Source: Kushneria pakistanensis (GTDB lineage Bacteria; Pseudomonadota; Gammaproteobacteria; Pseudomonadales; Halomonadaceae). From it: 64,000 bases of DNA. The translations under genes and the position numbers were made by a program. Under the pieces are notes generated by a model. The model worked only from the letters and a program-made list of their open reading frames with translations, was not told the DNA's origin and did not search any database. Shown here piece by piece: positions 36,694 to 52,083 of the stretch (the first letter of the stretch is position 1; every line of letters begins with the position of its first letter). The stretch lies in the NCBI RefSeq assembly GCF_014652795.1, contig NZ_BMZM01000001.1, positions 620,001-684,000 on the forward strand, in the 5' to 3' direction.

Positions 36694-37563
36694 ATGGCAG
36701 CGATGGCTCTCTCCAGGACGCAGGCCTGGGAACATGTATTGCGCGCACGCCGGTTTGACTGGCAGCGCGGCCTCTCATATCAGCACAATACGATGTCAAT
36801 AACGGCCGGCGGAGCGTGGCACTGTAGTGAGGAGGTTGACGCATCAGCATCGCAGTTGCTCGACATCATGCTGCCGCTGGTAGCGCGCGCCGCGCCGCTG
36901 GTCATGGCGCAGCTGGGGCAGAGCCTTGATGGGCGTATTGCCACCGAATGTGGGGCGTCCTATTACGTCACCGGCCATGAAGGACTTGTGCATCTGCATG
37001 CATTGCGTGCCATCGTCGATGCCGTTGTCGTGGGTGCCGGCACCGTGGCCATGGATAATCCGCGCCTGACGGTACGCCATGTCACCGGTGAGCATCCGGT
37101 CCGGGTGGTACTGGATCCCCGTGGCCGGGTGCCTGAAAGCCGATTTGTCTTTGAAGATGACAGCGCAACAACCCTGCATCTGGTAGGCCACGAACATGTC
37201 GCGCACTGGCAGGCCTGCCATGAATGTCATGCCCATGCCGTCAGCGTATGGGGGCTTGAGGTGCAGTCAAACGGTGTCGATCCCAGAGAGGTGATCGATA
37301 TTTTGCATCGTCAGGGGCTGATGCGCGTGCTGGTGGAAGGGGGCGGCATGACCATCTCGCGATTTTTACAGACCGGCTGCCTGGACCGTCTGCACAGCAT
37401 GGTCACGCCGATGATTATCGGTTCGGGCAGACCCACGCTGACACTGCCGGTCATCGAGTGCCTGAGTGAGGCAATGCGTCCGTCGTCACGGCATTACACG
37501 CTGGGCAATGATGTGCTTTTCGATCTTGATTTTGGCACTGTTGAGCAAACAGACACGGATTAA
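36694..37563 (+). CDS. RibD C-terminal-domain reductase
   Basis: A 289-residue protein with a RibD-C/DHFR-fold reductase domain from about residue 60. Seen: VMAQLGQSLDGRIATECGASYYVTG, DAVVVGAGTVAMDNPRLTVR and LVEGGGMTISRFLQTGCLDRL. RibD-C proteins reduce the ribosyl chain of a pyrimidine in riboflavin synthesis; stand-alone relatives reduce pyrimidine or pterin-like substrates in specialised pathways. No deaminase domain is present. The N-terminal about 60 residues are not recognised. Start 36694 has CAGGGAA upstream. It lies next to a PTPS-like/glycosyltransferase cluster. Confidence 0.85.
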   Translation: MAAMALSRTQAWEHVLRARRFDWQRGLSYQHNTMSITAGGAWHCSEEVDASASQLLDIMLPLVARAAPLVMAQLGQSLDGRIATECGASYYVTGHEGLVHLHALRAIVDAVVVGAGTVAMDNPRLTVRHVTGEHPVRVVLDPRGRVPESRFVFEDDSATTLHLVGHEHVAHWQACHECHAHAVSVWGLEVQSNGVDPREVIDILHRQGLMRVLVEGGGMTISRFLQTGCLDRLHSMVTPMIIGSGRPTLTLPVIECLSEAMRPSSRHYTLGNDVLFDLDFGTVEQTDTD

Positions 37564-37640
37564 CCGTTCTTTTCAGGCTCTTCGATGACGGATTCTCTGG
37601 GAAAATGCCGGGGTCCCTCGCCATTGACTGGAGCCTGAAA

Positions 37641-37865
37641 ATGAGTGTGAAAGGGTTGTTATCGCTGCTGTTTGGTATGTTGCTGGTGGTCTCTGGTATC
37701 TGGCTGACGCTTGACCAGGCACAGCAGGAGCGACAGTGGAATCTTCAAAGGGATGCCGCCAATGGTGTGATTCCCGGCGAGCTTCCCGGCGATGAGGCCA
37801 CCGCCGGCACTGGCGAACAGGCTGGCGAAAAAGACGATAGTGGTATCGTCAACAGGTTGCCCTGA
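37641..37865 (+). CDS. small membrane-anchored protein, unknown
   Basis: A 74-residue product with an N-terminal membrane anchor (SLLFGMLLVVSGIWLTL) and an acidic, Gly/Asp-rich tail. GGAG lies 7 nt before the ATG at 37641. It follows the RibD-C gene by about 80 nt and ends 2 nt from the convergent flippase-like gene. Function unknown. Confidence 0.5.
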   Translation: MSVKGLLSLLFGMLLVVSGIWLTLDQAQQERQWNLQRDAANGVIPGELPGDEATAGTGEQAGEKDDSGIVNRLP

Positions 37866-37867
37866 TC

Positions 37868-38869
37868 CTATCCACGGGCGTGTCGAGGTGTTACATGGCG
37901 GCCCAGAAGCAGTACCACGGCACCTGGCAGACTCGACAGCAGTATGACCGCACCATATGTCATCGAAATGGCCACGCCCTGCTGGGCAGGAAAACCGGCC
38001 AGTATCCAGACCAGCGCAGCAGCGCTTTCCCTGATGCCCCAGCCGGCCACAGAGACCGGAATGGCCATGGCCATCAGTACCGGTGGCGTCAAGGCCATCA
38101 GTGTCGTCGTCGACATTGATTCCCCCAGTGCTCTGGCACAGCAGATAAATACCAGCATGTAACTCAGCACAATGGCCATCGAGCTTACAAGCTGGCGCAG
38201 CCACAGGCGTCGATTCCAGAGCCCCCGACGCAGATCACGCCGTAATGCGTGCAGCCAGTGCGGCGGGTGTCGATAGACCCACACCCCCGGCAGCATGATC
38301 GCCAGGGCCATCGCCAGCAGCGCATATTGCCCCTGCGTGCCTGCTCCCAGCATCAGGTTGGCCTGTTCAAATCGCTCGATCAGCCCATGTCGCAGCGGCG
38401 TAAAGATCAGCAGGGTGGCCAGTGCCACCAGCAATAGCGCGGCCTGACCCGATGCCCGTTCGATAATGACCGCCCGCAGTGCCGCGCCATGGGCAGCGTC
38501 CCGGGTACCATGACGCCAGGCACGGCCCAGATCCCCCGTGACACCTCCTGGCAGCATTTGATTGAGAAAGATCGATAGATAGTATTCGCTGATGGCGGTG
38601 CGCAGCGGCAGTGAAAGCCCCATGTGGCGCGCCGTCAGCTGCCAGCGCCAGGCAGAGAGGATGACCTGGGGAATCGAAATCAGTAGTGCCAGTATCAGCC
38701 ATTGTGCGGAGAGATCGCTCAGGCGTACCAGCAGGGCTTCGATATCCACCAGCCAGGCCACGCAACCCAGAATGATCAGCGTGAACACCCAGCGCAGCGT
38801 TGGAGAGGCCAGCAGGCGCCGATATCCGTGCAGATCGCCTGCCGTATTTCGAGATCTTCCCGTCCTCAT
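37868..38869 (-). CDS. LPG-synthase-TM / UPF0104 'flippase-like' membrane protein
   Basis: A 333-residue integral membrane protein with about 8 segments of the lysylphosphatidylglycerol-synthase transmembrane family (UPF0104, AglD-like). Typical stretches: FLNQMLPGGVTGDLGRAWRHG, GWGIRESAAALVWILAG and SSLPGAVVLLLGR. Family members lie in glycolipid and cell-surface pathways and are often called flippase-like, though transport is rarely shown. Its ATGA start overlaps the methyltransferase stop, placing it last in a five-gene minus-strand operon. Confidence 0.85.
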   Translation of the reverse strand: MRTGRSRNTAGDLHGYRRLLASPTLRWVFTLIILGCVAWLVDIEALLVRLSDLSAQWLILALLISIPQVILSAWRWQLTARHMGLSLPLRTAISEYYLSIFLNQMLPGGVTGDLGRAWRHGTRDAAHGAALRAVIIERASGQAALLLVALATLLIFTPLRHGLIERFEQANLMLGAGTQGQYALLAMALAIMLPGVWVYRHPPHWLHALRRDLRRGLWNRRLWLRQLVSSMAIVLSYMLVFICCARALGESMSTTTLMALTPPVLMAMAIPVSVAGWGIRESAAALVWILAGFPAQQGVAISMTYGAVILLSSLPGAVVLLLGRHVTPRHARG

Positions 38870-39783
38870 GAAGCCCCGGACATGGCCGGCACGGCGAGCA
38901 GGTCGGTATGCCCCACCACGATCCCAAGGCGCCCCCGGGCGATATGTTGCTGGCGCGTCTCATGCCACTTCATCAGGACCTGACGCTGATGGGGGGCCTG
39001 TTCCAGCGCCGCATCCCGCCAGCCCTCTACAAGCGCTCTGGCCAGCAATGCCGTCTCCGCCTCTCGGCAGTCAAGCTGCCAGGGGGCGCTTGTCCGGGTC
39101 ACCTGATAGCCTGCGTTTTCCAGCAGGGTGGCGGCCACCTCCGGTGCGTGCGTGCCCAGGGCGCCATTGAACCCTTTGTCGCGCTGCTGATGGGCCCTGA
39201 TCAACTGCTGGACCTGTCGATCCATCTCCAGCAGGGCGGCGTCGCCGTTTTGATCGTCATGATCGATGAGCGCATTGTCCCCGTTGATGCTCATGGCCAG
39301 CCATACCGCGCACTGGTGCGAGGCACACTGTTTGATCAGCGTCTCCAGCCACGCCTTCGATACCAGATCAAGCAAAGCGGAGGCGGTCACGATATCGGTG
39401 CCGGCCAGCATGTCTTCTGTCAGGGCCTGATCCAGCTCGGAAAGATCGCGCTGGCGGCAGTCAAGCTCTGCAATATGCGCGTGATGAGGGTTGGCCTCCC
39501 CACGGGCATGCGCCAGCAGCGCAGCATCCTGGTCGATCAGACACCAGTGCTGACGAGGCGGCAGGCGAGGCGCGAGATAGCGCAGGTTGTTGCCGCTGCC
39601 ACAGCCCAGGTCCAGCAGTCGCAAGGTGCCTTGGTGCGAGCGTGATGACAGCCAGTGTCGGCATGCTTCGCTCAGCGGCTGATCATCGCGGGCCCGATGA
39701 TCAGCCGCTTCACGCAGGGCGAGCCATGACGCACTGAAATCACTGTGTGCGGCCATATCGCCTAGCGTCCGTGATTGGGCCAT
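38866..39783 (-). CDS. class I SAM-dependent methyltransferase
   Basis: A 305-residue soluble methyltransferase of the Rossmann class. Motif I is LRLLDLGCGSGNNLRYLAP, with an acidic residue after the next strand (WCLIDQDAALL). TDIVTASALLDLVS resembles the post-I motif IV region. GGAG is 9 nt upstream of the start. It lies between the glycosyltransferase and flippase-like genes and overlaps the latter. Substrate unknown; from the neighbours I infer a small-molecule or glycan hydroxyl or amine. Confidence 0.85.
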   Translation of the reverse strand: MAQSRTLGDMAAHSDFSASWLALREAADHRARDDQPLSEACRHWLSSRSHQGTLRLLDLGCGSGNNLRYLAPRLPPRQHWCLIDQDAALLAHARGEANPHHAHIAELDCRQRDLSELDQALTEDMLAGTDIVTASALLDLVSKAWLETLIKQCASHQCAVWLAMSINGDNALIDHDDQNGDAALLEMDRQVQQLIRAHQQRDKGFNGALGTHAPEVAATLLENAGYQVTRTSAPWQLDCREAETALLARALVEGWRDAALEQAPHQRQVLMKWHETRQQHIARGRLGIVVGHTDLLAVPAMSGAS

Positions 39784-39798
39784 GGGCGGTGACTCCAG

Positions 39799-40890
39799 TC
39801 AGGAAGCGGCGTTGATGTGCAGGCGATTCAGACAGGCCAGAAAATCATCGGCGGCGCCCGGCCAGTCGTTGAGTGTCCGGCGGGCCTCAAGCGCGCCCTG
39901 GCGCAGGGTCTGATAGTGCGTGCTGCGCGTAGCGGTGTCGTCAAACAGCAGCGAGCGCAGCGCATTACGCAGCGCAGGCGCATCGTCAGGAGGGACATGG
40001 ATGCCGGCACTGGCAGGCAGGGTGTCGGCCAGTGCGCCGCCGGTGGTCGTGATGACGGGCAGACCATGGGCCAGCGCCTCGGTAATCACCATGCCATAGC
40101 CTTCATAGAAGGAGGGCAGGACAAACAGATCACTCTGCTGCCAGTGTGTTTCCAGCGCCTCGGGAGCCAGGGCGCCATGCAGGGTGACGCGCTGCTCGAG
40201 CTGATGTTCGACGATCAGGTCGCGCAGTTTTTGAGTATAGCGCTCGTCGCGGGTGTCATCGCCGATCAGATCACAGTGCCAGTCATGTGCCTTGAGATCT
40301 GCCAGCGCCTCGAGCAGCAGATGCTGGCCCTTGCGCGGAATCAGGGTGGCGATGCACAGCAGTCGCGGTGTGTCATTGTCTGTCGGGGCGATCGATACCG
40401 GCGTGATACCGGGCTCGACCACGCTGATGTGTGTCTCATCGACGCCCAGTTCGACCAGACGGCGCTGGGTAAAGCGGCTGGTCACGATGATGCCGGCAGC
40501 TGACTGCAATGCCTGGCATTCAAGCCCCAGGAGCGTTTTGCGTTGCCCCTCATCGAGACCGGTTTCATCGCCCAGCGGATGATGAATGAGCGCGACCAGC
40601 GTCAGGCGACGGGCATGCACTTCCAGTACGTCGGGCATGGCACTGGCGGCTAGGCCATCGACCACCACCAGGCTGCGATCGGTACAGCCGCCCAGCGCTC
40701 GCTGCAGCGATTCCCGGGCAATATCGTCCGGCCACGGAAAGCGCCCATCCAGCCCGATGACCTCGACCTGGATGTTGATCTCGCGTAGCGCCTCGACAAT
40801 GCGACGATCATAGATATAGCCGCCGGTCAGCTGATCCGGCCGGCCGGCGATGATCAGGACCAGACGGCGAACGGAGTGTTCGGATGTCAT
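39799..40890 (-). CDS. GT4-type glycosyltransferase
   Basis: A 363-residue GT-B fold retaining glycosyltransferase. The C-terminal nucleotide-sugar site is clear: CIATLIPRKGQHLLLEALADL, LHGALAPEALE and LFVLPSFYEGYGMVITEALAHGLPVITT, with the family's conserved Glu pair (EGYGM...E). The N-terminal half has the acceptor domain (IIAGRPDQLTGGYIYDRR). The start overlaps the PTPS-like stop by 4 nt (ATGA). In this setting the acceptor may be a pterin-like molecule or a lipid; inference only. Confidence 0.9.
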   Translation of the reverse strand: MTSEHSVRRLVLIIAGRPDQLTGGYIYDRRIVEALREINIQVEVIGLDGRFPWPDDIARESLQRALGGCTDRSLVVVDGLAASAMPDVLEVHARRLTLVALIHHPLGDETGLDEGQRKTLLGLECQALQSAAGIIVTSRFTQRRLVELGVDETHISVVEPGITPVSIAPTDNDTPRLLCIATLIPRKGQHLLLEALADLKAHDWHCDLIGDDTRDERYTQKLRDLIVEHQLEQRVTLHGALAPEALETHWQQSDLFVLPSFYEGYGMVITEALAHGLPVITTTGGALADTLPASAGIHVPPDDAPALRNALRSLLFDDTATRSTHYQTLRQGALEARRTLNDWPGAADDFLACLNRLHINAAS

Positions 40891-41285
40891 AGCGACCCTT
40901 CGTAGCTTGCCCAGGCGATATGGGATTCGTGCAGGGTAACGCTTAGCGCCGTCAGTCCCTTGCCGGTCTCGCCCAGCTGGTCGGCCTCGATCGAGGCGGC
41001 CATGCGGTCAAAGATGACCCTGGCCATGAACTCGGTAGTGGTGTTGCGCCCCTTGAACTCCTCGATTTCGTCAAGATTTTGCATGTTGATGTCGCTCAAC
41101 ACTTCCGACAGCGTCTGGCTGGCAAGGCCGATGTCGACGATCAGGTCGTCCTGATCAAGCTCCGGACGCTTGAAAGTGACATCCACGATGTAGGTGGCGC
41201 CGTGCAGTTTCTGGGCCGGACCGAAGATCTGACCGTTGAAGCTGTGGGCGATCATGACGTGATCGCGAACGGTAAGGCTGTACAT
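40887..41285 (-). CDS. divergent 6-pyruvoyl-tetrahydropterin-synthase/QueD-like protein
   Basis: A 132-residue T-fold protein of the PTPS/QueD family. Compared by eye with QueD, VMIAHSFNG keeps the first zinc His. PAQKLHGATY replaces the usual Cys-x-x-LHGH with Ala-x-x-LHGA, so the catalytic Cys and one zinc His are lost. INMQNLD replaces LDHxxLN. The pterin-holding TTTE and the later LHESH Glu are kept. It is thus likely to bind a pterin-like ring without doing the standard reaction. GGAG lies 7 nt upstream, and the gene is the second of a five-gene operon. Confidence 0.8.
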   Translation of the reverse strand: MYSLTVRDHVMIAHSFNGQIFGPAQKLHGATYIVDVTFKRPELDQDDLIVDIGLASQTLSEVLSDINMQNLDEIEEFKGRNTTTEFMARVIFDRMAASIEADQLGETGKGLTALSVTLHESHIAWASYEGSL

Positions 41286-41312
41286 GGCAGGACTCCGAAA
41301 GGGAAAAATGAA

Positions 41313-42293
41313 TCAGGTACTGTAGCGAATGCGGTGACACAGGGTGCCGGCCTGGGTGGTAACGCGGGCCATGGTATCGGGTAGTGCTTCAAAGTCACTT
41401 TCTGCATCGATCAGGACGTCCAGCCGGTCATCCTCAAGCAGTTCGAGCGCCTGTGCCATACGCTCGGCATGGGTACGCCGTGCCGCGCGGGCTGGGGAGA
41501 CCGTACCGACCTGACTGGCTCGCAGCGTCAGTCGCCGCGAATGAAAGGCCTCGCCCAGTGGCAGGCTGACCGACTGCGCGCCGAACCAGCTTATTTCGAT
41601 GATGGTCGCCTCCGCGCCGGCGAGCGTCAGCGCCTGCTGAAGGCCGCCTTCGCTACCGCTGGCATGAATGACCAGATCGCACTCATCGCGCGCCTGCGCC
41701 GGCGTTGCAAAGTCGATATCCAGTGCCTGTGCCAGCGTTTTTCGCGACTCGTCGATGTCGATCAGCTCGACCCGGGTGCCCGGGATATTTCGACACAGCC
41801 AGGCCATCAGCGTGCCGACAACGCCGGCGCCAATCACGGCGATGCGATCTCCTATCCGGGGTGCGGCGTCCCAGAGGCCGTTGAGCGCCGTTTCCATGTT
41901 GGCGGCCAGTACGGCGCGCTCGGGAGGCAGTGCGTCAGGTAGCGGCTGCACCATGGACATGGGGACGACGTAGTGATCCTGATGGGGATGCAGGCAGAAT
42001 ACGTAACGGCCCTCGAGGTCACTCGGGCCTTCTTCCACCAGGCCCACGCTTGAATAGCCGTATTTGACCGGCGCCGGGAAGTCACCTTCCTGAAAGGGCG
42101 CGCGCATGCGCGCATGTTCGCTTTCCGGCACCCGGCCGTGAAACACCAGGGTTTCAGTACCCCGGCTGATGGCGCTGTAACAGGCGCGAATCCTGACCTC
42201 ATCGGCCCCTGGTCTCGCCAGCGACTGTGTTCGAATGGTCCCTTGTCCGGGCGCTTCGACCCAGAAGGCGCGGGCTGTATTTTCCGAGCTCAT
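41313..42293 (-). CDS. zinc-type alcohol dehydrogenase-like oxidoreductase
   Basis: A 326-residue medium-chain dehydrogenase-like protein. The N-terminal GroES-like domain has [17 protein letters not shown] and [13 protein letters not shown], and the Rossmann domain has [17 protein letters not shown] with the acidic end ELIDIDES. It is shorter than typical ADHs, and I do not see a four-Cys structural zinc loop. [10 protein letters not shown] could provide metal or catalytic His. It begins the minus-strand operon (27 nt before the PTPS-like gene). Substrate unknown; a reduction or dehydrogenation of a pterin side chain would fit the context. Confidence 0.82.
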
Positions 42294-42615
42294 TCATGAC
42301 CTTGTGCGTTGTTGACCTGTGCGTTGTAAAAAAGCGCCGTGCCGTCAAAAGGGCGCTACGCAGTATAGACACTGTCCGTGGATTCGCCGTGTCGTACAAG
42401 GCTTAAGCCAGCCTGCGCCCGCTGGGCACCCTGCGTCACCATATGGTGATCAAGCGCTATCCTTAACATGGTTTATCATATCGGCACCCGGTTTGCCTGT
42501 TGTATGATGACTTGCTGATGAATGTTGCGCGATTCTGATGGGCCTGCCCGATGTACATGCGGGAAGCAAAGCGGGATGGGCAAAATGCCTGCTGACAGTG
42601 CTGGAGGGCGCTGAC
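42294..42615. other. divergent promoter region of the pterin-like cluster
   Basis: About 320 nt between the leftward ADH-like operon and the rightward CDP-alcohol phosphatidyltransferase gene. It contains a perfect 14-bp palindrome TCACCATATGGTGA (42436-42449), a GTACAAG half-site (42394-42400) matching the 36390 operator arm, and a TATGAT -10-like box (42503-42508). No gene seen; the frame from 42538 reads into the phosphatidyltransferase but lacks a ribosome site. Confidence 0.45.
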
Positions 42616-43353
42616 ATGAGTGACCGACGGGTAGCAATGAGGCCTTTCAGCTGGTCTTCTTCCGGCATGTTCCGGGATCTTCTGGCAGGGTTTGTCGTCC
42701 TGATGCTGCTGGTGGCCATGTTGCGTGTCATGTACATGACGCCGGTGTCACTATATCCCGCGGCCGGCGGTGCGTATCTGGTACTGGCCGCAATGATGCT
42801 ACATGGCCGGCCGGCCGGGCAGCAGCATCTGGGCTGGGCCAATCGCGTGACGCTGGCGCGCGCGGTGTTGATCGTGCTGCTGACAGCCATGCTGCCGCAA
42901 CCGACGTTTGTCAACGATCATCACCTGCTGGTATTTACCGCGGCGCTAGTAGCGCTAATGCTTGATGGCGTGGATGGCTGGGTGGCGCGGCGTACCCACA
43001 CCGAAAGCCGTTTCGGTGCGCGTCTGGATATGGAACTTGACGCCTTTTTCATTCTGATGCTGTGTCTGATGCTGGTCATTCAGGGCAAGGCCGGCATGTG
43101 GATCATGGCCATCGGCGCCATACGCTATCTGTTTGTCGCGAGTGCCTGGCGCTGGCCCTGGCTTGGCAGTGAGCTGCCGGTCAGTTACCGGCGCAAGACC
43201 ATCTGTGTCTGGCAGGTCAGTACCTTGATGACCTGCCTGCTGCCCTGGGTGACAATGCCCTGGTCGAGTCTGCTGCTGGCCCTGGCGCTGCTTCTTTTGA
43301 TGATCTCCTTCGCCCTGGATATCGCCTACCTTTATGCCCATGCTCGCCGATAG
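42616..43353 (+). CDS. CDP-alcohol phosphatidyltransferase
   Basis: A 245-residue integral membrane enzyme that joins a CDP-activated group (usually diacylglycerol phosphate) to an alcohol. The full catalytic motif is present: DGVDGWVARR, then eight residues, G, and DMELD, matching D-G-x2-A-R-x8-G-x3-D-x3-D. Six or so membrane segments follow. The start at 42616 has GGAGGGC 6 nt upstream. It is divergent from the PTPS-like operon and could attach a phosphatidyl group to that pathway's product; the alcohol substrate is not known. Confidence 0.88.
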   Translation: MSDRRVAMRPFSWSSSGMFRDLLAGFVVLMLLVAMLRVMYMTPVSLYPAAGGAYLVLAAMMLHGRPAGQQHLGWANRVTLARAVLIVLLTAMLPQPTFVNDHHLLVFTAALVALMLDGVDGWVARRTHTESRFGARLDMELDAFFILMLCLMLVIQGKAGMWIMAIGAIRYLFVASAWRWPWLGSELPVSYRRKTICVWQVSTLMTCLLPWVTMPWSSLLLALALLLLMISFALDIAYLYAHARR

Positions 43354-43420
43354 GGCTGCATTTTCCAAAAGGGCTGCCGATATGGCCTTTGATGTATCAT
43401 GACTTTCATGAAACGCCTTG

Positions 43421-44440
43421 ATGAGTATTCGTATGGCCCGTGATGCCTTTGTACTGGCAGGGGAGAAAGTGCTTCCCGGCCAGCGCCGCCAGATTGATGT
43501 GCCGGTTGCCCGCCTTTATACCCACACGCCGCTCAATATTCCGGTAGAGGTCGTTCACGGCCGTCGGGAAGGGCCCGTCATGCTGGTCTGTGGTGCCATT
43601 CATGGCGATGAGATCAACGGTGTCGAAATCGTTCGGCGGGTGCTCAAAACGCGCTCATTGTCGCGTCTGCGCGGTACCCTGATTGCCGTGCCGATCGTCA
43701 ACGTCTTCGGCTTCGTCCAGCACAGTCGTTATCTGCCGGACCGGCGGGATCTGAACCGCTGCTTCCCGGGCAGCGAATCCGGCTCGCTGGGGTCGCGCAT
43801 TGCCGCGCTCTTTCGCGAGCAGGTAGTGGATCTGGCCACGCACATTCTGGATCTGCACACCGGTGCCATTCATCGTACCAACCTGCCTCAGATTCGTGCC
43901 CAGCTGGAGCGCAATGAGCAGACCCGTGCCATGGCGGATGCCTTTGGCGCGCCGGTCATTCTCAATGCCGAGCTGCGCGGTGGCAGCCTGCGGGAATACG
44001 CCGAGCGCCGCGGTATTCCCGTGCTGACCTACGAGGCGGGCGAGGCGTTGCGCTTTGATGAATGGGCCATCAGTGCCGGCGTGCGCGGTGTGCTGCGGGT
44101 CATGCGACTGCTGGATATGCTGCCGGCCGGTCGCGGTAGCAAGGTGCCGGCTTCGGAGGTGGCACGAAGCTCCAGCTGGGCGCGTGCCTCGATTGATGGT
44201 GTATTGCGGCCGCGCGTCAGGCTGGGTGCACGTGTGGTCAAGGGTGAGCGCCTGGGGATCGTGGCCGGGCCCTTTGGCAATGAGGAGGGCGACGTGCTGG
44301 CCTCAAGTGACGGGATCGTGATTGGCATGAGCAATCTGCCGCTGGTCAATGAAGGGGAGGCGGTCTTTCATATCGCTCGCTTTCACGAGCTGGGAGATGC
44401 CGAGCATGCCGTGGAAGCCTGGCAGGCACGCGTTGAGTAG
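43421..44440 (+). CDS. succinylglutamate desuccinylase/aspartoacylase-family (M14-like) hydrolase
   Basis: A 339-residue zinc-carboxypeptidase-fold amidohydrolase. Zinc ligands: CGAIHGDEINGVE (HxxE) and ILDLHTGAIHRTNLPQ (third His). Catalytic region: VLTYEAGEALRFDE (Glu). The C-terminal 90 residues form the beta domain (GLRV-like VRLGARVVKGERLGIVAGPFG). Family members remove acyl groups from amino acids. The start is uncertain: ATG at 43421 or 43433, neither with a good ribosome site. It follows the phosphatidyltransferase by about 65 nt and may be co-transcribed. Confidence 0.85.
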   Translation: MSIRMARDAFVLAGEKVLPGQRRQIDVPVARLYTHTPLNIPVEVVHGRREGPVMLVCGAIHGDEINGVEIVRRVLKTRSLSRLRGTLIAVPIVNVFGFVQHSRYLPDRRDLNRCFPGSESGSLGSRIAALFREQVVDLATHILDLHTGAIHRTNLPQIRAQLERNEQTRAMADAFGAPVILNAELRGGSLREYAERRGIPVLTYEAGEALRFDEWAISAGVRGVLRVMRLLDMLPAGRGSKVPASEVARSSSWARASIDGVLRPRVRLGARVVKGERLGIVAGPFGNEEGDVLASSDGIVIGMSNLPLVNEGEAVFHIARFHELGDAEHAVEAWQARVE

Positions 44441-44448
44441 TGGGGAGA

Positions 44449-44470
44449 CCCTGACGCCCGGGCGTCAGGG
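44449..44470. terminator. hairpin between convergent genes
   Basis: A perfect 22-nt palindrome (CCCTGACGC ccgg GCGTCAGGG) lies between the hydrolase stop and the convergent aldo/keto reductase stop. The U-tract is short (CTTT), so it may work as a modest bidirectional terminator. Confidence 0.6.
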
Positions 44471-44480
44471 CTTTGGAACC

Positions 44481-45458
44481 TCAATCAGCGCCGGGAATGG
44501 GCGCATCCATCGAGACAAGGCCTTCATTCCAGAGCGTCTGCCATAGCGCATTGGGAATGGGTGTGGTCATCAGGGCCTGGTTCTCGGCAATGCGCTCAGG
44601 TCGCGTGGTGCCCGGAATCACGGCAGCTACGGCACGCGGTGCGGCGCTGAACTGTAGCGCAACGGCGCGGATATCGACCCCAAAGCGATCACAGATATCG
44701 CGAAGGCGTCGAGTACGCTCGCGCACGTCATCGGAGGCCTGCTTGTAGTCATAGTGATCTCCCCCGGCCAGAATGCCCGAGTTGTAGGCGCCGCCGATGA
44801 CCAGACGCACGCCGCGGCGGTCGCATTCCGGTAACAGGCTGGTCAGGGCGCCTTCATGGTCGAGCAGCGAATAACGTCCGGCCAGCAAAAACCCATCGGG
44901 ATCTGCCTTTTCAAGCGCTCGCGTACAGGCTTCCACGCGATTGACGCCCAGCCCCCAGGCACGAATCACACCTTCCTCACGCAGCCGCGTCAGGGCACGC
45001 GCCGCGCCATTCATGGCCTGATCATGTACCTCTTCCCAGCGATCACCGTGGGCATCAAGGGCGCAATCATGAATCCATGCAATATCAATGCGATCCATGT
45101 TCAGCCGCTTGAGGCTTTCCTCGATGGAGCGCAGGGTCCCGGACTCCGAGTAGTCGTAGGCCACCCGGTTGGGACGGCCATTGGCGAAGATACCGCTTTT
45201 CTTCTCATGCTCATCGAGAATCAGACGCCCCACCTTGGTGGAAATCATGTAGCCAGTGCGTGGTTCATCAGCGAGTGCCTCGCCCACACGCATTTCCGAA
45301 AGGCCGGCGCCATATTGCGGTGCCGTATCGAAATAGCGGATGCCGGCTTCCCATGCCGTGCGCAGCGTCTCGATGGCGCGTGTGTCCGGCACTTCCTCGT
45401 ACATGTTGCCCAGCGGTGCCGTACCCAACCCCAGCTTGCCTGGCAGTTCAAAACGCAT
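44481..45458 (-). CDS. aldo/keto reductase (D-threo-aldose/pyridoxal dehydrogenase-like)
   Basis: A 325-residue TIM-barrel oxidoreductase. Catalytic tetrad region: YFDTAPQYGAGLSEMRVGEAL (Asp, Tyr), MISTKVGRL (Lys) and DIAWIHDCALD (His). The NADP-binding end has AVIPGTTRPERIAEN. This sub-group includes pyridoxal 4-dehydrogenase and fucose/galactose dehydrogenases. The start has a perfect AAGGAGG 5 nt upstream, suggesting high expression. Substrate unknown. Confidence 0.88.
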   Translation of the reverse strand: MRFELPGKLGLGTAPLGNMYEEVPDTRAIETLRTAWEAGIRYFDTAPQYGAGLSEMRVGEALADEPRTGYMISTKVGRLILDEHEKKSGIFANGRPNRVAYDYSESGTLRSIEESLKRLNMDRIDIAWIHDCALDAHGDRWEEVHDQAMNGAARALTRLREEGVIRAWGLGVNRVEACTRALEKADPDGFLLAGRYSLLDHEGALTSLLPECDRRGVRLVIGGAYNSGILAGGDHYDYKQASDDVRERTRRLRDICDRFGVDIRAVALQFSAAPRAVAAVIPGTTRPERIAENQALMTTPIPNALWQTLWNEGLVSMDAPIPGAD

Positions 45459-45607: not shown

Positions 45608-46645
45608 TCAGTCAGGCATATGAGCCGGCAGCTCACGTTCGGCATCGACGTCATCCACCAGCGCCAGTGCCTGATCAAATACTTCGATGCCGGCATCCGG
45701 ACGGTGGGCAGTCTCGGAAAGATAACGCCGGAAACGGCGTCCGCCGCGACAGCCGGTAAAAAGCCCAAGGATATGGCGCGTGATGTGGTTGAGCCGCACG
45801 CCTGATTCGAGCCGTGATATCAGATAGGGGCGAAAGGCCTGCATGGCCTCATGGCGTGTCGGCGGCGTGGTCGCTTCCCCGAAGATGTCACGATCGACGT
45901 GTGCCAGTAGCCACGGATTCTGGTAGGCCTCGCGCCCGATCATGACGCTGTCGACATGCTCAAGCTCACGCTGACAGTCGCTGATGCTCTTGAGCCCACC
46001 GTTGATGCCGATGTGAAGTTCGGGGTGTGCCGCCTTGAGGCGGTGCACGCGCGGATAGTTCAGCGGCGGTACGTCCCGATTCTGTTTGGGGGAGAGGCCC
46101 TCAAGCCAGGCCTTGCGGGCATGTACGGTAAAGGTTGTGCAACCGGCCGCCGCCACGGTGTCGATAAAGCGCGCCAGATCCTCATCTTCGTCCTGATCAT
46201 CAATGCCGATACGACACTTGACCGTGATCGGAATCGTGACCGCCGCCTGCATGGCCGCCACACAGCGTGCCACCAGTTCAGGATGGCCCATCAGACAGGC
46301 GCCGATCATGTTGTTTTGCACGCGATCGCTTGGACAGCCAACGTTCAGATTGACCTCCTGATAGCCCCAGCTTTCTGCGATGGCAGCGCATTCGGCAAGG
46401 ACTGCCGGGTCACTGCCGCCCAGCTGCAGCGCCAACGGGTACTCGATGGCGTCATGACCCAGAAAGCGCTCACGCGGCGTGCCATGCAAAATGGCACCGG
46501 TGGTGACCATCTCGGTATACAAAAGGGCACGTTTGGTCAATGTGCGTGCAAAGGCGCGCTGGTCGCGGGTCGTCCAGTCCATCATCGGGGCTATAGAAAA
46601 CCGGCGAGCCTGATCTGCTGAGGTATTTTGCGATTTATCAGTCAC
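45608..46645 (-). CDS. dusA: tRNA-dihydrouridine(20/20a) synthase DusA
   Basis: DusA reduces uridines 20/20a in the D-loop of tRNA using FMN and NADPH. The 345-residue protein has FSIAPMMDWTTRDQRAF, LLYTEMVTTGAILHG, LQLGGSDPAVLAECA, EVNLNVGCPSDRVQNNMIGACLM (catalytic Cys), FTVHARKAWLEGLSPKQNR, HIGINGGLKS and SVMIGREAYQNPW. The start is a GTG at 46645 with poor ribosome site, only 130 nt from a phage integrase gene. The 5' end of dusA is a known phage integration target, so the first codons and upstream signals may have been replaced by phage DNA. Confidence 0.95.
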   Translation of the reverse strand: MTDKSQNTSADQARRFSIAPMMDWTTRDQRAFARTLTKRALLYTEMVTTGAILHGTPRERFLGHDAIEYPLALQLGGSDPAVLAECAAIAESWGYQEVNLNVGCPSDRVQNNMIGACLMGHPELVARCVAAMQAAVTIPITVKCRIGIDDQDEDEDLARFIDTVAAAGCTTFTVHARKAWLEGLSPKQNRDVPPLNYPRVHRLKAAHPELHIGINGGLKSISDCQRELEHVDSVMIGREAYQNPWLLAHVDRDIFGEATTPPTRHEAMQAFRPYLISRLESGVRLNHITRHILGLFTGCRGGRRFRRYLSETAHRPDAGIEVFDQALALVDDVDAERELPAHMPD

Positions 46646-46774
46646 TTAAGATATCCGCCTGATCGTTTTACGTCCCGTTAAACCCTATTAAATACCGCTC
46701 AAAACCGTTGCCGGTGTACCATTGATGTACCAAATCGTAAAAAACAGAGCAAAGCCAAAAAAGGTGGTACACCA
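46646..46774. other. probable prophage left end (attL region) with integrase arm-type repeats
   Basis: Between dusA and int lie three copies of TGTACCA: 46715-46721, 46726-46732 and, inverted, 46765-46771. Short directly spaced and inverted copies next to int are typical of arm-type or Xis sites. The core repeat cannot be defined because the right end is outside the window. Confidence 0.5.
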
Positions 46775-47809
46775 GTGGCAACATTTCAGAAGCGGGGGAC
46801 GAGTTGGCGCGCCATTGTACGGAAGAAGGGACACCCTGCACAGACGCACACTTTCTCCACGAAGGCCCGCGCACAAGCATGGGCAAAGCAGGTAGAAAGC
46901 GAGCTTGAAGATCGTGCTGCCGGTATCAAGCCCGGGCTCACGATCGGTGATGCATTGAAGCGGCACGAAGCACACCTTGAGCGGATTTCGTCCCGAGGGC
47001 GAAAGAACAAGACGTCAGCAAACAACCTGCGCAAGGGCATCGATACCGAGATGCTGTTATCGCAGCTGCAGTATCAGCACCTGATGACGTTCGCGGATAC
47101 ACGCAGGAAAGTTGATGGTGTCGCGGCCTCAACCGTCATGACAGACATTATGTACCTCTCGGGGGCAATCACGACCTGCGTGGTTGAGGAACTGGCGCCG
47201 CCCGCCTTGAAGGCTTCCATGTCGAGCTGGCGTGCTGGCCTAAAGCGTGCTGGGCTGATCGGTAATCCAGATGATCGCGATCGGCGTCCGACGGATAAGG
47301 AAATTGAAGAATTACTGACTCATACCCGACATAACCTCGCGTTGCGGCGCATCGGCTATAACGCCTTGATCCGCTTTGCGGTGAATTCCTGCATGCGTCT
47401 GGACGAGATATGTTCGCTACGCTGGGAGGATCTCGACGCAACCAATGGCACGATTATCGTCAGGCTTAGAAAGCATCCGACCAAGGCAACTGATCAGGTC
47501 GTGCCCTTGATGGGGGAGAGCCTGGCCATTATCGAAGCACAGCCGAGGAAGGAGGAGAGAATATTCCCGTTTAACAGTGAATCAACGTCGAACGGGTTTC
47601 GCCGGATCTGTCAGCACCTCGGGATCGAGAATCTGCATTTTCACGATCTACGGCACGAGGGTATCAGTCGGCTATTTGAGCGGGGCTATCAGATTCAGGA
47701 AGTGGCCATGGTGTCTGGCCATCGCGATTGGAAGAGTCTCAAGCGCTACGTCAATTTGCGCCCGGGTGAGCTGGTGATCAAGGACCGGGCGCGAAGTGAG
47801 AGCGCTTAA
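46775..47809 (+). CDS. int: tyrosine recombinase, dusA-type phage integrase
   Basis: A 344-residue tyrosine recombinase. The N-terminal arm-binding part (MATFQKRGTSWRAIVRKKGH) is typical of phage integrases. Catalytic residues are visible: Arg in NSCMRLDEICSLRWED, Lys in RLRKHPTKATDQ, HDLRHEGISRLFERG (His and Arg), VSGHRDWKSLKRYVNL (His and Tyr). The start is GTG at 46775. It lies against the 5' end of dusA, fitting the described dusA-specific integrase family. It converges with the prophage early operon. Confidence 0.93.
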   Translation: MATFQKRGTSWRAIVRKKGHPAQTHTFSTKARAQAWAKQVESELEDRAAGIKPGLTIGDALKRHEAHLERISSRGRKNKTSANNLRKGIDTEMLLSQLQYQHLMTFADTRRKVDGVAASTVMTDIMYLSGAITTCVVEELAPPALKASMSSWRAGLKRAGLIGNPDDRDRRPTDKEIEELLTHTRHNLALRRIGYNALIRFAVNSCMRLDEICSLRWEDLDATNGTIIVRLRKHPTKATDQVVPLMGESLAIIEAQPRKEERIFPFNSESTSNGFRRICQHLGIENLHFHDLRHEGISRLFERGYQIQEVAMVSGHRDWKSLKRYVNLRPGELVIKDRARSESA

Positions 47810-48024
47810 GCAGCGCTCCCACGTTGGGTGTCGATGTACTTTGCAGCATCAGAGATATGCACCATGGGCTGCCGGGCGGTTCGTGTCAGCGGGACAGGGA
47901 ATGTCCCCCCCGCGATGCGGTTCCGCGCTGTCTGAATGCTCACACCCATGATGTCGCGGCAAAAAACGTCGAGTGGGATCAGTGGTTTCTCGTAGCACGC
48001 CAGCAGCATGAACTCGGTTTTCAT
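47806..48024 (-). CDS. PrtN-like / excisionase-like DNA-binding protein
   Basis: A 72-residue protein (MKTEFMLLACYEKPLIPLDV start) resembling the pyocin-activator PrtN family: FxLLAxYE-xPxIPL, then ARNRIAGGTFPVPL and DAAKYIDTQRG. These are small winged-helix proteins, and in prophages one beside int often acts as excisionase or regulator. AGGAG lies 10 nt before the ATG at 48024; an earlier in-frame ATG is at 48048. Its end overlaps the int stop by 4 nt on the opposite strand. Confidence 0.7.
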   Translation of the reverse strand: MKTEFMLLACYEKPLIPLDVFCRDIMGVSIQTARNRIAGGTFPVPLTRTARQPMVHISDAAKYIDTQRGSAA

Positions 48025-48230
48025 TGTCCATTTTCTCCTGTCAGCCATTCTGCCGCCGGGATCAGGCGCGATAGCTCATAAGTGCGAGCGATGCTCTCCG
48101 GCCAGCGACGCAACTCGATCATGCGGCCAGTAACAGTGGCCAGCAGTGTCAGCCGGATCTGCTCAGGCACGCCCTGGGGCGCCACGTCGGCGCCCTCGGT
48201 CTTTTTGAGTTCCTGATTAGTCCTACTCAC
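48021..48230 (-). CDS. small phage protein, unknown
   Basis: A 69-residue soluble protein (GTG start, MSRTNQELKKTEGADVAPQG) with helical LRLTLLATVTGRMIELRRW-like middle. The GTG overlaps the stop of the preceding gene and has AAGGGGG before it. Its own stop overlaps the PrtN-like start. No family recognised. Confidence 0.55.
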   Translation of the reverse strand: MSRTNQELKKTEGADVAPQGVPEQIRLTLLATVTGRMIELRRWPESIARTYELSRLIPAAEWLTGENGQ

Positions 48231-48396
48231 GACGCACCCCCTTTTCGATCGCCGCGAGGCGATTGGCCATGCGGGTGTATTCGTCGTACTGAATAGCCAG
48301 CTCATCACTGGCCGTCGCCTTGCCCAGCAGGAATGCGATGCGCAGGGTGACGAGGCCTAGCAGAATGAGCAGGGCGAATTGAATAAGCTGGATCAT
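48223..48396 (-). CDS. small single-TM phage protein
   Basis: A 57-residue protein with one membrane segment (FALLILLGLVTLRIAFLLG) and a charged helical tail. AGGAG lies 7 nt before the ATG at 48396. It overlaps neighbours at both ends in the early operon. Function unknown; small membrane proteins in phages can be holin- or exclusion-like. Confidence 0.55.
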   Translation of the reverse strand: MIQLIQFALLILLGLVTLRIAFLLGKATASDELAIQYDEYTRMANRLAAIEKGVRRE

Positions 48397-48611
48397 CGAC
48401 GGACTCCTTTTGCCTTGTGTTCGTTGATTGATTGGCACTCCACGCAGGTGGCCACGCCCGGCAGGGCGTCGCGGCGCTTTTGCGGGATTGGCTCGTCGCA
48501 GTCCTCGCAGTGAGTCAGGCTGTGTGCGCTCGCCATGCGGGCGCGGCTGGCCAATGCGGCATCGAGATGGCGCTGGCTGTTTTCATTGGCGAGATCGATT
48601 GAATCGGCCAC
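48393..48611 (-). CDS. TraR/DksA-type zinc-finger protein
   Basis: A 72-residue protein with the DksA/TraR C4 finger: CEDCDEPIPQKRRDALPG and CVECQ. TraR-like phage proteins bind the RNA polymerase secondary channel and mimic DksA plus ppGpp. P2 carries a similar gene. The N-terminal helix (SQRHLDAALASRARM) matches family length. It lies just downstream of gpA and overlaps the TM gene. Confidence 0.85.
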   Translation of the reverse strand: MADSIDLANENSQRHLDAALASRARMASAHSLTHCEDCDEPIPQKRRDALPGVATCVECQSINEHKAKGVRR

Positions 48612-48622
48612 GGGGTCTCCTG

Positions 48623-50587
48623 CTATCTCAGCTCAAAGGGAATAAATTCAGGGATTCGTTGCCACGCGGGTGGTGGCTGGATGCTTTCCCGGTGCCGACG
48701 CTCCAGATCCGCGAGCGCCTGCTGGGTTTCTTCATGCTCTTGCTGCGCCAGTTCCAGCTCGGCGCGGTATGCGGTGCTGTTGATCCACTCCCGATACCGT
48801 TTTGCCTGGAGGGCATCGGTCTGGGGATCTGCCGCGCGGGGCGCGGTGTCAGGCCCCGTACAGTTATTCACACAAGTCCAAGGGTCGTCGGCTGCGCCTC
48901 CTCCATAAGAACCCTTCTGGCTGAAGTCATAAGCGCCGGCGCGCGCCTTCGGGCGCATGGTCCAGCTGTAGAAACGGGTCAAATACTCGGCACCTTTTAC
49001 GAGCAGGCCGTAGGTGATTTCGACGCGCTCGCCATACCCGCCACGAGCAAAAGGCACCTCATCAGCCTGCATCTCGCGGCTGGTATCCATGCGCCACTCG
49101 CGCCACGGCTTGATCGGCTGATCCTTGCGCGGCGTCAGCGGGCCACCCATCAGGCGCAGGAACTGATCCCATGCGCCGGCGTTGCATGCGGTGCGCACCC
49201 TGGCCATGAATTCACGGATCGAGCGGCCCGGATTAGTGGCGGCTTCCCATGCAGCCAGCTGCTCGGCCTGCTGCTCGGTCAGGCGACGCACTTCGCGCCA
49301 GACCGTGACAGACGGCAGCCCGACGAACTGAAATTGACGGATGCCCCACACGGCGGCCCACGCCTCAACGCGCGGCGCACTGCTGGCCATCTCGCGGCCA
49401 TACTCGTCGAGATCGACGAACTGCTGGCCGTTGATGTTCTTGGAGACGTACTTGGCGACATACCCGGCAGCGGTGCCGCGCGTGTAGTCGATGAACTTGG
49501 CCTGAAAGCGGTTCCTTTTGGCGCCCGGCTCGTCGGGCGTGTCGGCCAGCGCGTACTCGGCCATTACCTGATTGACCCGTTCGACATGATCAGCATGTGC
49601 CCACATCAGCATGTGCCAGTGCGGGGTGCCGTCGTGGTGAGGCTCGGCCACGCGCACGCCATAAATGCCGATACCTTCGCGAGCCAACGCCGCACGAATG
49701 CGCGCCCAGACGTTGGTCAGATAGCTCTGCGCATCGCGGGGCGTGTTGTGCTCGTAGTTCGGGTTACGGGTGCAGCTTTTGGCGCGGATCGGGTGGAACC
49801 GGCTCGGGCAGGTCAGGGTGTAGAACACGCCGACATGACCCAGCCGGCGCGCTTCCGCTTCGGTCTCGCGAATGCGTAGCATCAGCTCGGCGCGACGATT
49901 GTCAGGATTGGCCAGCCCCAGCTCGGAGAGTTCGGCCAGCGTGTAGTTCTGGCCGTGCTGGTTGATCGCCTCAATGGCATCGAGCATCGCGTGATTGCGC
50001 AGCTTTTGACTGGCGCGACGCGCCACGGTGGTGTTCGAGCAGTAGATGCCGGCACGGTGATGGACATTGCCCAGCTCGCGCTCGAGCTGCTCCAGCCGGC
50101 GACCGGCCAGCACGCGCAGCTTGCGACGCCACCACTTGGCGTCCTCAAGGCGGGCCAGTTGGGTACGGATAGGCAGCTTGCCGTCCGGCGGATCAATCTC
50201 GTGCTTTTCGACACGCTCAAGCCCCAGCGCCAGCGCGGCCTCGGCAGCGGTCAGTTCGGACCAGCCATTGCGATTGGCTGCGCCTACCTGCTCATCATGC
50301 TGACGCTTGATGGCCATGGCCTGACCCTCGGCGTGATTGCAGATGCCCTCATCGTCATGGGTCACACGAAACGGCCCGACATGCAGGCGCTGGCAGATCC
50401 GACGCAGGTAGCTGTTACCGGCACCGTTACCATCACGGCGCGCGACGACCAGAAACGCCTTTGCGAGCTGCTCGGCATACTGCGGGTAACGGTCGAACAC
50501 GTACTGCTGGCGCCACTCCTGACAGCTCAGGTTGCCCTGGCCACCGGGTGCGCCAAATTCGCGGGATTGTTCGATAGCGCTGGTCAT
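48623..50587 (-). CDS. P2 gpA-like replication endonuclease
   Basis: A 654-residue rolling-circle initiator. The HUH metal site is seen as GTPHWHMLMWAHADH, and the catalytic twin tyrosines as GYVAKYVSKN, the arrangement used by P2 gpA to nick the origin and join ends. YTLTCPSRFHPIRAKSC and MLRIRETEAEARRLGHVG support the family. The N-terminal EFGAPGGQGNLSCQEWRQQY is phage-specific. Its ATGA start overlaps the upstream gene. Nicking site usually lies inside the A gene. Confidence 0.93.
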   Translation of the reverse strand: MTSAIEQSREFGAPGGQGNLSCQEWRQQYVFDRYPQYAEQLAKAFLVVARRDGNGAGNSYLRRICQRLHVGPFRVTHDDEGICNHAEGQAMAIKRQHDEQVGAANRNGWSELTAAEAALALGLERVEKHEIDPPDGKLPIRTQLARLEDAKWWRRKLRVLAGRRLEQLERELGNVHHRAGIYCSNTTVARRASQKLRNHAMLDAIEAINQHGQNYTLAELSELGLANPDNRRAELMLRIRETEAEARRLGHVGVFYTLTCPSRFHPIRAKSCTRNPNYEHNTPRDAQSYLTNVWARIRAALAREGIGIYGVRVAEPHHDGTPHWHMLMWAHADHVERVNQVMAEYALADTPDEPGAKRNRFQAKFIDYTRGTAAGYVAKYVSKNINGQQFVDLDEYGREMASSAPRVEAWAAVWGIRQFQFVGLPSVTVWREVRRLTEQQAEQLAAWEAATNPGRSIREFMARVRTACNAGAWDQFLRLMGGPLTPRKDQPIKPWREWRMDTSREMQADEVPFARGGYGERVEITYGLLVKGAEYLTRFYSWTMRPKARAGAYDFSQKGSYGGGAADDPWTCVNNCTGPDTAPRAADPQTDALQAKRYREWINSTAYRAELELAQQEHEETQQALADLERRHRESIQPPPAWQRIPEFIPFELR

Positions 50588-51042
50588 TCTGCGTTCTGCT
50601 CGATCAGTTTCAGATAGTGCTGTGCGGCGGCAATGTCGCCGGCCTCAAGGGCTAGCCGAGCACTTGCGGCAAGCGCCTGCGACGGATGCGACTCGCTGCG
50701 CATTCCGTCACGCAGGCGACTGGCGTAAGAACTCATGCGGTGAATGGCTGCCCGGATGGCCTCGCGGGTTTTGGGCGTCATCCACTCAATGGGGGTGTGG
50801 GTCAGGGTGTTGGCGATGGCCTCCGGCGTGCGCTCGTTGGCCGGAATCTCGTTAAGCGGGCGAGCCGGTACCAGCGTCTGCGCCGCCGAGCGCAACACCA
50901 CGGCGCGCTCGGCGGGCTGCATGGCGGCCCATACCTCGGCCAGATCCCGGTTTTCAGTGCGCCGGCGCAGTTCCTCGCGCACGGCAATAAAACCGGCGCG
51001 CGGATCGACGACTTCGGGGCGGATGGCGTGAACGCTGGCCAT
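50584..51042 (-). CDS. phage protein upstream of gpA, unknown
   Basis: A 152-residue helical soluble protein (MASVHAIRPEVVDPRAGFIA start; ends YLKLIEQNAE). Ala/Arg-rich with no Cys. It overlaps gpA by 4 nt and begins 2 nt after the upstream gene, so it is a firm member of the early operon. Possibly a replication accessory in the gpB position; that is positional inference. Confidence 0.65.
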   Translation of the reverse strand: MASVHAIRPEVVDPRAGFIAVREELRRRTENRDLAEVWAAMQPAERAVVLRSAAQTLVPARPLNEIPANERTPEAIANTLTHTPIEWMTPKTREAIRAAIHRMSSYASRLRDGMRSESHPSQALAASARLALEAGDIAAAQHYLKLIEQNAE

Positions 51043-51044
51043 GG

Positions 51045-51380
51045 TTACGCCCTCACTGCCTGTACGGCGCGCACATCAGCGTTTTGACGCTCGGCAAAGC
51101 CGATCAGGTCATTGACGGTCAGCGCCATGCGGCGACCATCCGGGTGATTGACGACCACGACATAAGAAGTGGTCGACTCGACATCGATAGCTGCGCGACG
51201 GTTGAAGGATTCCAGCTCGGCCATGGCCTGTACGGCCATCAGGCTGGCATCGAGTGGCGTGTGGCCATGCTGCTGGATCAGGTGCGACGTGCAGCGATTG
51301 ATCGCATCGCCGCGATGCGCACGGCGGGGCAGATCCAGTAGAAAGGCAGTAGCAGCGTTATCGCGATTCAGTGCGTGCAT
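51045..51380 (-). CDS. phage protein, unknown
   Basis: A 111-residue soluble protein (MHALNRDNAATAFLLDLPRR start). It contains SYVVVVNHPDGRRMALTVND, a beta-hairpin-like stretch. GGAGGTG lies 4 nt before the start, which lies inside the end of the preceding gene. No family recognised. Confidence 0.6.
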   Translation of the reverse strand: MHALNRDNAATAFLLDLPRRAHRGDAINRCTSHLIQQHGHTPLDASLMAVQAMAELESFNRRAAIDVESTTSYVVVVNHPDGRRMALTVNDLIGFAERQNADVRAVQAVRA

Positions 51381-51592
51381 GACACACCTCCCTGCGCATT
51401 GAGCTGATCGAATGCGTAACAGGCATGCTGCAGCGCCTCGTCATCGCGCAGCCGAGCTTCTTCGACGAGATGACGACCGCAGGCCGTGACCATTTGATAG
51501 GGGGTGCGGTGACGCGGCTGATTGCGCAGGAACGCCTGCGCGGCGTCCTGAATGCTGTCGCTGGGGTCAATTTGGTAGTGGGGGTCAATCAT
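51368..51592 (-). CDS. small phage protein, unknown
   Basis: A 74-residue soluble protein (MIDPHYQIDPSDSIQDAAQA) with two or three Cys near the end. Its ATGA start overlaps the Ogr-like gene stop, and its 3' end overlaps the next gene by 13 nt. No family recognised. Confidence 0.55.
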   Translation of the reverse strand: MIDPHYQIDPSDSIQDAAQAFLRNQPRHRTPYQMVTACGRHLVEEARLRDDEALQHACYAFDQLNAQGGVSCTH

Positions 51593-52043: not shown

Positions 52044-52083
52044 GAGCACCTCGCGAGGTCCTGAAAGGGTGTCGCGCCGTGCC

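Follow-up and report, generated by a model that had tools for sequence, protein, structure and literature searches.

Which molecule would be made by a compact group of genes that joins a PTPS-like protein and a RibD_C-type reductase to glycosyl, methyl, and lipid enzymes is the question raised by a 64,000-nucleotide stretch of Kushneria pakistanensis DNA (contig NZ_BMZM01000001.1, positions 620,001 to 684,000; hereafter, the window), taken from a genome of 3.52 Mb. An earlier note, based on the letters of the window, had listed seven families at this locus, and all of them were found when open reading frames (ORFs) were searched with Pfam and NCBIfam profiles. We found that these genes are a real, widely conserved, and coherent set with no known product, and we give a probability of about 0.5 to the reading that they represent, in Kushneria, a widespread "PTPS-IV pathway" of the orphan kind, in which a GTP-derived aminopyrimidine would be converted into a glycosylated, methylated, and optionally lipid-linked product. 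The genes, with window coordinates, are the following:

36694..37563, plus strand: RibD_C-family reductase (ATG start; 36649 with the TTG start), Pfam RibD_C, E 2.3e-38
37868..38869, minus strand: UPF0104/LPG_synthase_TM flippase-like membrane protein, Pfam LPG_synthase_TM, E 5.3e-39
38866..39783, minus strand: S-adenosylmethionine-dependent methyltransferase (MT), Pfam Methyltransf_12, E 5.5e-10
39799..40890, minus strand: GT4-family glycosyltransferase, Pfam Glycos_transf_1, E 1.1e-29
40887..41285, minus strand: PTPS-IV protein (COG0720 subfamily, FGPAQ), Pfam PTPS, E 6.5e-24
41313..42293, minus strand: medium-chain dehydrogenase/reductase (MDR), a BchC/polyol-dehydrogenase-like NAD(P) oxidoreductase (ADH), weak matches (Pfam 3.9e-4, NCBIfam BchC 1.5e-12), both below cut-off
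42538..43353, plus strand: CDP-alcohol phosphatidyltransferase (CDP-OH), divergently placed, Pfam CDP-OH_P_transf, E 3.1e-16

Position 36694 of the reductase gene is an in-frame ATG, 15 codons past the TTG picked by the ORF lister. The minus-strand genes are arranged in the order ADH, PTPS, GT4, MT, and UPF0104, with the RibD and CDP-OH genes flanking them on the plus strand. The earlier note was right that three of the four minus-strand junctions overlap or nearly abut, as there are 4-bp overlaps at UPF0104/MT and GT4/PTPS and a 15-bp gap at MT/GT4; the remaining gap, PTPS/ADH, is 27 bp.

The comparison of the window PTPS with plasmids by tblastn gave 30 records, with matches that included Rhizobiaceae, Rhodobacterales, Methylosinus, Thiodictyon, Microbacterium, Streptomyces, and haloarchaea, and 15 of these stretches were inspected. 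The ADH gene was near PTPS in 11 annotated stretches, along with GT4 and/or methyltransferase genes (by annotation or profile), and a small gene separated ADH from PTPS in a Natronorubrum plasmid. Among the unannotated plasmid loci, profiles detected all nine families of the set in one (L026), and ADH, PTPS, and GT4 in another (L033). A scan with a PTPS alignment, at one genome per species, matched at least 594 stretches, at least 587 of them confirmed; two patterns were used, and a single locus may be counted twice. The best 80 loci, chosen by similarity to the window, came from Gamma-, Beta-, and Alphaproteobacteria, Actinomycetota, and metagenome-assembled genomes labelled Acidobacteria and Gemmatimonadales, and for the latter kind (Acidobacteria L083, Gemmatimonadales L100, and others) the label is possibly wrong.

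Profiles generated from the window proteins and their plasmid partners were run on every ORF of the window and of 95 further loci (n = 96), where ORFs of GC-rich loci are possibly longer than the true genes. PTPS was detected in 96 loci, ADH in 94, GT4 and MT in 92 each, CDP-OH in 79, UPF0104 in 67, RibD in 66, GTP cyclohydrolase II (GCHII) in 52, a creatininase-family gene in 51, an FkbM methyltransferase in 23, and a sulfatase-like gene in 18. When the set was restricted to loci whose flanks reached 6.9 kb or more before PTPS and 7 kb or more after it, leaving out 18 short-flank loci and the window (n = 77), the numbers were 76 for ADH, 75 for GT4, 74 for MT, 64 for CDP-OH, 58 for RibD, 56 for UPF0104, 47 for GCHII, 45 for creatininase, 20 for FkbM, and 17 for the sulfatase-like gene. 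The AspA and AKR genes at 43418-45458 were rejected as parts of the cluster, being found in 9 and 2 of the 96 loci, respectively (window counted), and in close kin only.

In an even sample of 249 Pseudomonadota genomes, PTPS-IV and ADH were found in the identical 15 genomes and in no other, at limits (E ≤ 1e-15 and E ≤ 1e-50, respectively) that were strict to exclude other PTPS and MDR families, and the two genes were adjacent in 15 of 15; one of the ADH matches (G049) contains a TGA, and another (G252) spans profile positions 65-325 only. Within the family, 19 of 25 genomes, its own included, have the window PTPS, and none of the 13 genomes from the rest of the order does. Since the arrangement recurs over classes and phyla, it exceeds chance. 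The genes are conserved together in other genera, the lack of which the earlier note had named as a refutation of its reading.

By its sequence, the window PTPS is a member of PTPS-IV, an orphan subfamily of COG0720. At residues 21-25, FGPAQ replaces the CxxxHGH motif, and the exact FGPAQ was observed in 92 of the 96 sequences. Both this signature and the PF00925/PF01872 neighbours have been published for PTPS-IV in the AGeNNT paper (PMC5445326), where PF00925, GTP cyclohydrolase II in Pfam, is called "FolE2". Our locus shares with that neighbourhood FGPAQ and RibD_C (PF01872), the latter in the window, but the window cluster has no GCHII gene, and this part of the neighbourhood was found in the 47 relatives mentioned above. 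In the AGeNNT passages on this neighbourhood, no partner of the ADH, GT4, MT, UPF0104, CDP-OH, or creatininase families is named, nor is any product; a check of the text by terms gave 0 occurrences of "zinc-binding" and "CDP-alcohol" and did not include "creatininase". Searches of open-licence PubMed Central papers did not bring up the set of nine families, the pairing of GCHII with creatininase, the joint GT4-MT ORF, or the lipid half described below. The earlier note, which knew of no described product, stands in that no product was found in this literature, but the subfamily and its cyclohydrolase-II and RibD neighbours had been published before.

The full-length solved relative of the window PTPS is SCO6650 of Streptomyces coelicolor (PDB 3d7j, E 3.5e-51), a one-protein structure listed as uncharacterised. 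This protein reportedly has no zinc and no PTPS activity. Upon alignment with Caenorhabditis elegans PTPS, the zinc motif HGH was found changed to HGA and the catalytic Asp-His to Asn-Met in the window protein. HGA was present in 93 of the 96 PTPS-IV sequences, the other three, haloarchaeal, having HSH, and a pattern scan, in which a few sequences may be out of register, found the catalytic DH in none of the 93 readable sequences. All 18 bacterial sequences of the alignment have Glu120, which is likely the pyrimidine/pterin anchor. Because the protein lacks the PTPS zinc and catalytic motif, the pterin-like identity inferred in the earlier note is not established, and entry through an aminopyrimidine of the riboflavin type is more likely. 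Public records call subfamily members "6-carboxytetrahydropterin synthase", but their motifs give no support for this name. The QueD/PTPS-I assignment was rejected, with 41.7 bits for the QueD model against a cut-off of 89.25 and no CxxxHGH motif in the window protein, and so was PTPS-II/biopterin synthase, as both CxxxxxHGH and the Asp-His pair are absent.

These data bear on the alternative that the product is a soluble glycosylated pterin, i.e., a pigment or cofactor resembling biopterin- or cyanopterin-glucosides, with PTPS-IV acting on dihydroneopterin triphosphate, ADH as a sepiapterin reductase, GT4 as the glycosylating enzyme, and the lipid genes as mere neighbours. The PTPS fold and the retained Glu agree with it, and a soluble end product is possible because GT4 is present in 75 of 77 loci and CDP-OH absent in 13, but we regard it as unlikely in view of the HGA and missing DH motifs, the reported properties of SCO6650, and the type II nature of the linked cyclohydrolase; inspection by eye of the 25 most frequent other neighbour families revealed no cyclohydrolase I. 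The tetrahydrobiopterin and pterin-glucoside pathways also combine a PTPS fold with an oxidoreductase and a glycosyltransferase; the cluster differs from them in the lost zinc and catalytic motif, in the use of an MDR rather than a short-chain dehydrogenase, and in cyclohydrolase II instead of I.

Two side observations concern PTPS. The haloarchaeal plasmid loci (L027-L029) carry HSH where bacterial PTPS-IV have HGA, suggesting that their zinc site may be intact. Moreover, the Kushneria genome contains a 283-aa frame with two tandem PTPS-like domains, a second COG0720 paralogue (G000:C1:1028322-1029047).

The aminopyrimidine entry is consistent with the genes linked to the cluster in relatives. 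GCHII and creatininase-family genes were paired, as both were present in 42 of the 77 loci and neither in 27, with GCHII only in 5 and creatininase only in 3. The earlier note had suggested looking for a GTP cyclohydrolase partner; relatives do have one, but it is of type II, comes with a creatininase-family amidohydrolase, and neither gene lies inside the window cluster. At the place of Escherichia coli Tyr105, the Streptomyces-type GCHII proteins have Met, those of Actinomadura and Amycolatopsis His, and one from Halomonas Ile. The S. coelicolor cyclohydrolase SCO6655 is said to stop at the formylamino compound owing to a Met instead of this Tyr. In the 52 loci with a cluster GCHII, the creatininase gene was present in 20 of 20 with a non-Tyr residue, and all 6 loci without it were of the Tyr type. 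BrbF, an enzyme of the creatininase family, removes formate from a GCHII-type intermediate (PMC9478397), and the cluster proteins share the superfamily with the BrbF and ArfB formamidases described there. The two cluster proteins analysed are nearer to the MftE and creatininase models, and the ArfB model gave 19 and 34 bits for these two relatives' proteins against a cut-off of 180.

A profile search with PF02633, the creatininase family, gave no match in the window genome. This genome has two GCHII genes, one of them, by reading of the sequence, in a rib operon elsewhere; the other encodes a stand-alone RibA of the E. coli type, whose identity to the cluster GCHIIs does not exceed 51% and which has Tyr at the Tyr105 place. 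As the window lineage has neither a cluster GCHII or creatininase gene nor a PF02633 match, its diaminopyrimidine most likely comes from the housekeeping cyclohydrolase. The RibD_C protein contains no deaminase domain, with about 68 aa before its domain, counted from the ATG. Its best solved relative was 6p8c (E 2.3e-25), listed as a 2,5-diamino-6-ribosylamino-4(3H)-pyrimidinone 5'-phosphate reductase, and the next, 2azn, reportedly acts on the same 2-amino substrate.

Since GCHII, creatininase-family, and RibD_C proteins belong to riboflavin-type families, the cluster could be thought to feed flavin or deazaflavin synthesis as an alternative riboflavin or F420 branch, and a 2016 review cites, as unpublished, a role of PTPS-IV in archaeal F420 (PMC5041015). 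We consider this highly improbable. CofD was absent from 25 of 25 genomes of the family (TIGR01819), 19 of which have PTPS-IV, and PF01933 gave no match in the Kushneria genome, so an F420 role in this lineage was rejected; the 13 order-mates, none of which has PTPS-IV, had CofD above the cut-off in 5 and one weak match below it (TIGR01819). These searches covered the own family and order-mates, with haloarchaea, which make F420, outside. Riboflavin supply alone was discarded because of the separate rib operon. Among the same 25 neighbour families, none was recognised by eye as a lumazine synthase, riboflavin synthase, deaminase, or FO synthase, and such routes would have no use for the GT4, MT, and lipid enzymes.

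Next to PTPS lies the ADH, which resembles BchC and polyol dehydrogenases. Zinc-dependent MDR alcohol dehydrogenases bind the catalytic zinc through Cys and His ligands, and the window protein has ISRGTE and PVKYGY at the zinc-ligand places (alignment judged by eye), suggesting that it apparently lacks the usual catalytic ligands. The GT4 and MT genes formed a single ORF in 22 loci, mainly from Halomonas/Vreelandella and Marinobacter, a set in which L064 is interrupted by a contig end and L092 is possibly just a long open frame; because of this fusion in many relatives, both enzymes may act in one handover. The sugar donor is hinted to be UDP-glucose, since galU was found close to the cluster in 8 of 96 loci.

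The CDP-OH and UPF0104 genes behaved as a lipid half of the set. UPF0104 occurred without CDP-OH in 1 of 56 loci, and CDP-OH without UPF0104 in 9 of 64 (n = 77 set). The window protein has an intact D-x2-DG-x2-AR-x8-G-x3-D-x3-D, the motif of CDP-alcohol phosphatidyltransferases, whose columns were at least 93% conserved in 79 domains. The cluster proteins belong to the same Pfam families as the MprF-type flippase domain and PgsA-like CDP-alcohol phosphotransferases, but the NCBIfam matches of the cluster proteins tested were all below the curated cut-offs. The lipid genes, which the earlier note took as part of the set, are linked in relatives, but as a separable half, CDP-OH being absent in 13 of 77 loci. 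In 17 Halomonas-type loci (L045, L046, L050, L055, L058, L060, L061, L063, L065-L068, L071, L074-L076, and L111), the UPF0104 frame continued free of stops for about 260-350 codons beyond the domain, by coordinates antisense to ribD; either the two genes overlap tail to tail over a long distance, or the open frame is accidental. A similar overrun was seen in three loci from Streptomyces (L026, L080, and L091).

A membrane sulfatase-superfamily gene was near the cluster in 18 of 96 loci, including some from Rhizobiaceae, Variovorax, Chromatiales, Halomonas, and Streptomyces/Amycolatopsis, and CDP-OH was present in 16 of the 17 flank-complete cases. Pfam Sulfatase scored below the cut-off in three relatives and just above it in the single homologue of the Kushneria genome, found on another contig with neighbours that look unrelated (a RadA-like ATPase and an FMN oxidoreductase). 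By sequence, the protein had chance matches only in the PDB. Its predicted structure (pLDDT 83.6) matched best PbgA (6xlp, E 4.3e-7) and LtaS (4uor, E 2e-6), with TM to the target of only 0.29 and 0.46, respectively (0.29-0.48 in the best rows). LtaS and MdoB enzymes transfer phospho-head groups from phosphatidyl lipids to glycans. Moreover, mdoG was in the flanks of 18 of 96 loci, and mdoH likewise in 18. The sulfatase-superfamily gene and mdoG/mdoH near the clusters are at most suggestive of a new class of membrane lipid, i.e., a glycosylated, methylated ribityl-aminopyrimidine or pteridine with a phosphatidyl (or archaeal) anchor, flipped by UPF0104; in many hosts, an LtaS/MdoB-like enzyme would transfer the phospho-head group of this lipid to a glycan of the periplasm or cell wall. 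We put this forward tentatively and hold it to be doubtful. If true, the envelope of bacteria and haloarchaea would contain a component that is derived from guanine and possibly redox-active or fluorescent.

The same neighbours could be taken to mean that the cluster is an envelope polysaccharide or lipid pathway, with PTPS-IV and RibD recruited for unrelated chemistry and a product lacking any pyrimidine or pteridine. Along with mdoG, mdoH, and galU, genes for YceI (23), FkbM methyltransferase (23), and the sulfatase superfamily (18) lie near some of the 96 loci, which would suit this explanation. However, the mdoG and galU neighbours come mostly from Halomonas, Marinobacter, and Thioalkalivibrio-type loci, and GCHII, creatininase-family, and RibD_C proteins together are a coherent start from GTP that recurs in several phyla, and we therefore see this as quite improbable. 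The YceI-family genes (L038, L046, L070, and L107 among the loci) were often on the CDP-OH side, and cytochrome b561 genes were near the cluster in three loci.

From the gene identities, conservation, linkage, and motif changes, we infer the substrates, order of steps, lipid attachment, and product of the PTPS-IV pathway as follows. GCHII would open GTP to 2-amino-5-formylamino- or 2,5-diamino-6-ribosylamino-4(3H)-pyrimidinone 5'-phosphate, and a creatininase-family formamidase would strip the formate where the cyclohydrolase halts at the formyl stage; in Kushneria, the housekeeping cyclohydrolase would supply the diaminopyrimidine. The RibD_C reductase would then act on the ribosyl side chain, reducing it and leaving the 2-amino group in place, and PTPS-IV, which retains the glutamate expected to bind a 2-amino-4-oxo-pyrimidine edge, may bind the reduced aminopyrimidine or a derived pteridine and work jointly with the MDR dehydrogenase on the side chain. 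GT4 would add a sugar and the methyltransferase a methyl group. Where the lipid half is present, the CDP-alcohol transferase could link the alcohol to lipid, and the MprF-like protein could move the product over the membrane. Of the reduced, glycosylated, methylated, lipid-bound pterin-like molecule that the earlier note had envisaged, the unit, the cyclohydrolase partner, and the linkage of the lipid genes held, but the pterin is not established, and the chemistry is deduced from the families. The presence of this pathway in Proteobacteria, Actinomycetota, and haloarchaea points to an unnamed but common metabolite. Its product could be sought, as GTP can be put forward as the starting compound, a PTPS-IV protein structure is available, and some hosts can be cultivated.

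Several results weigh against this proposal. Creatininase genes were also present in 26 of the 32 Tyr-type cluster-GCHII loci, for which the formyl logic offers no explanation, and the two cluster creatininase proteins scored best with MftE and then creatininase, not ArfB. The RibD_C protein scored higher with the bacterial RibD C-terminal model (136.3 bits) than with the archaeal-type 2,5-diamino-6-ribosylaminopyrimidinone phosphate reductase model TIGR01508 (113.7 bits, cut-off 186.45), both below cut-off. RibD was missing in 19 of 77 loci and showed no association with GCHII (35/23/12/7, n = 77; Fisher p 1). Correlation of the identity matrices gave r values of 0.91 for PTPS-ADH, 0.89 for GT4-MT, and 0.92 for GCHII-creatininase, but the RibD pairs were the lowest (0.55 to 0.84), with 0.55 for PTPS and 0.58 for ADH, and both these correlations and the Fisher p-values ignore the relatedness of species. 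In the lipid half, CDP-OH was absent in 13 of 77 loci and UPF0104 in 21. In addition, close kin weigh heavily in the locus counts because the 80 loci are the best matches to the window, and two Streptomyces plasmids (L021 and L034) carry a solo PTPS-IV with no cluster partner in the stretch. These two solo genes lie near a metallo-β-lactamase-fold hydrolase and a BTAD regulator.

Beside the cluster, the window from 45608 to 64000 holds a prophage that has probably inserted at a dus site, and part of this region is lower in GC. Its features are the following:

45608-46645: dus gene, directly beside the integrase
46775-47809: phage integrase
48623-50587: P2-type replication gene A protein
53043-53720: S24-type repressor

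Genes for a baseplate hub and a minor tail protein were also found within this region, and at 59585-60821 it contains direct repeats of 273 bp (90%) and 72 bp (85%), about 895 bp apart.

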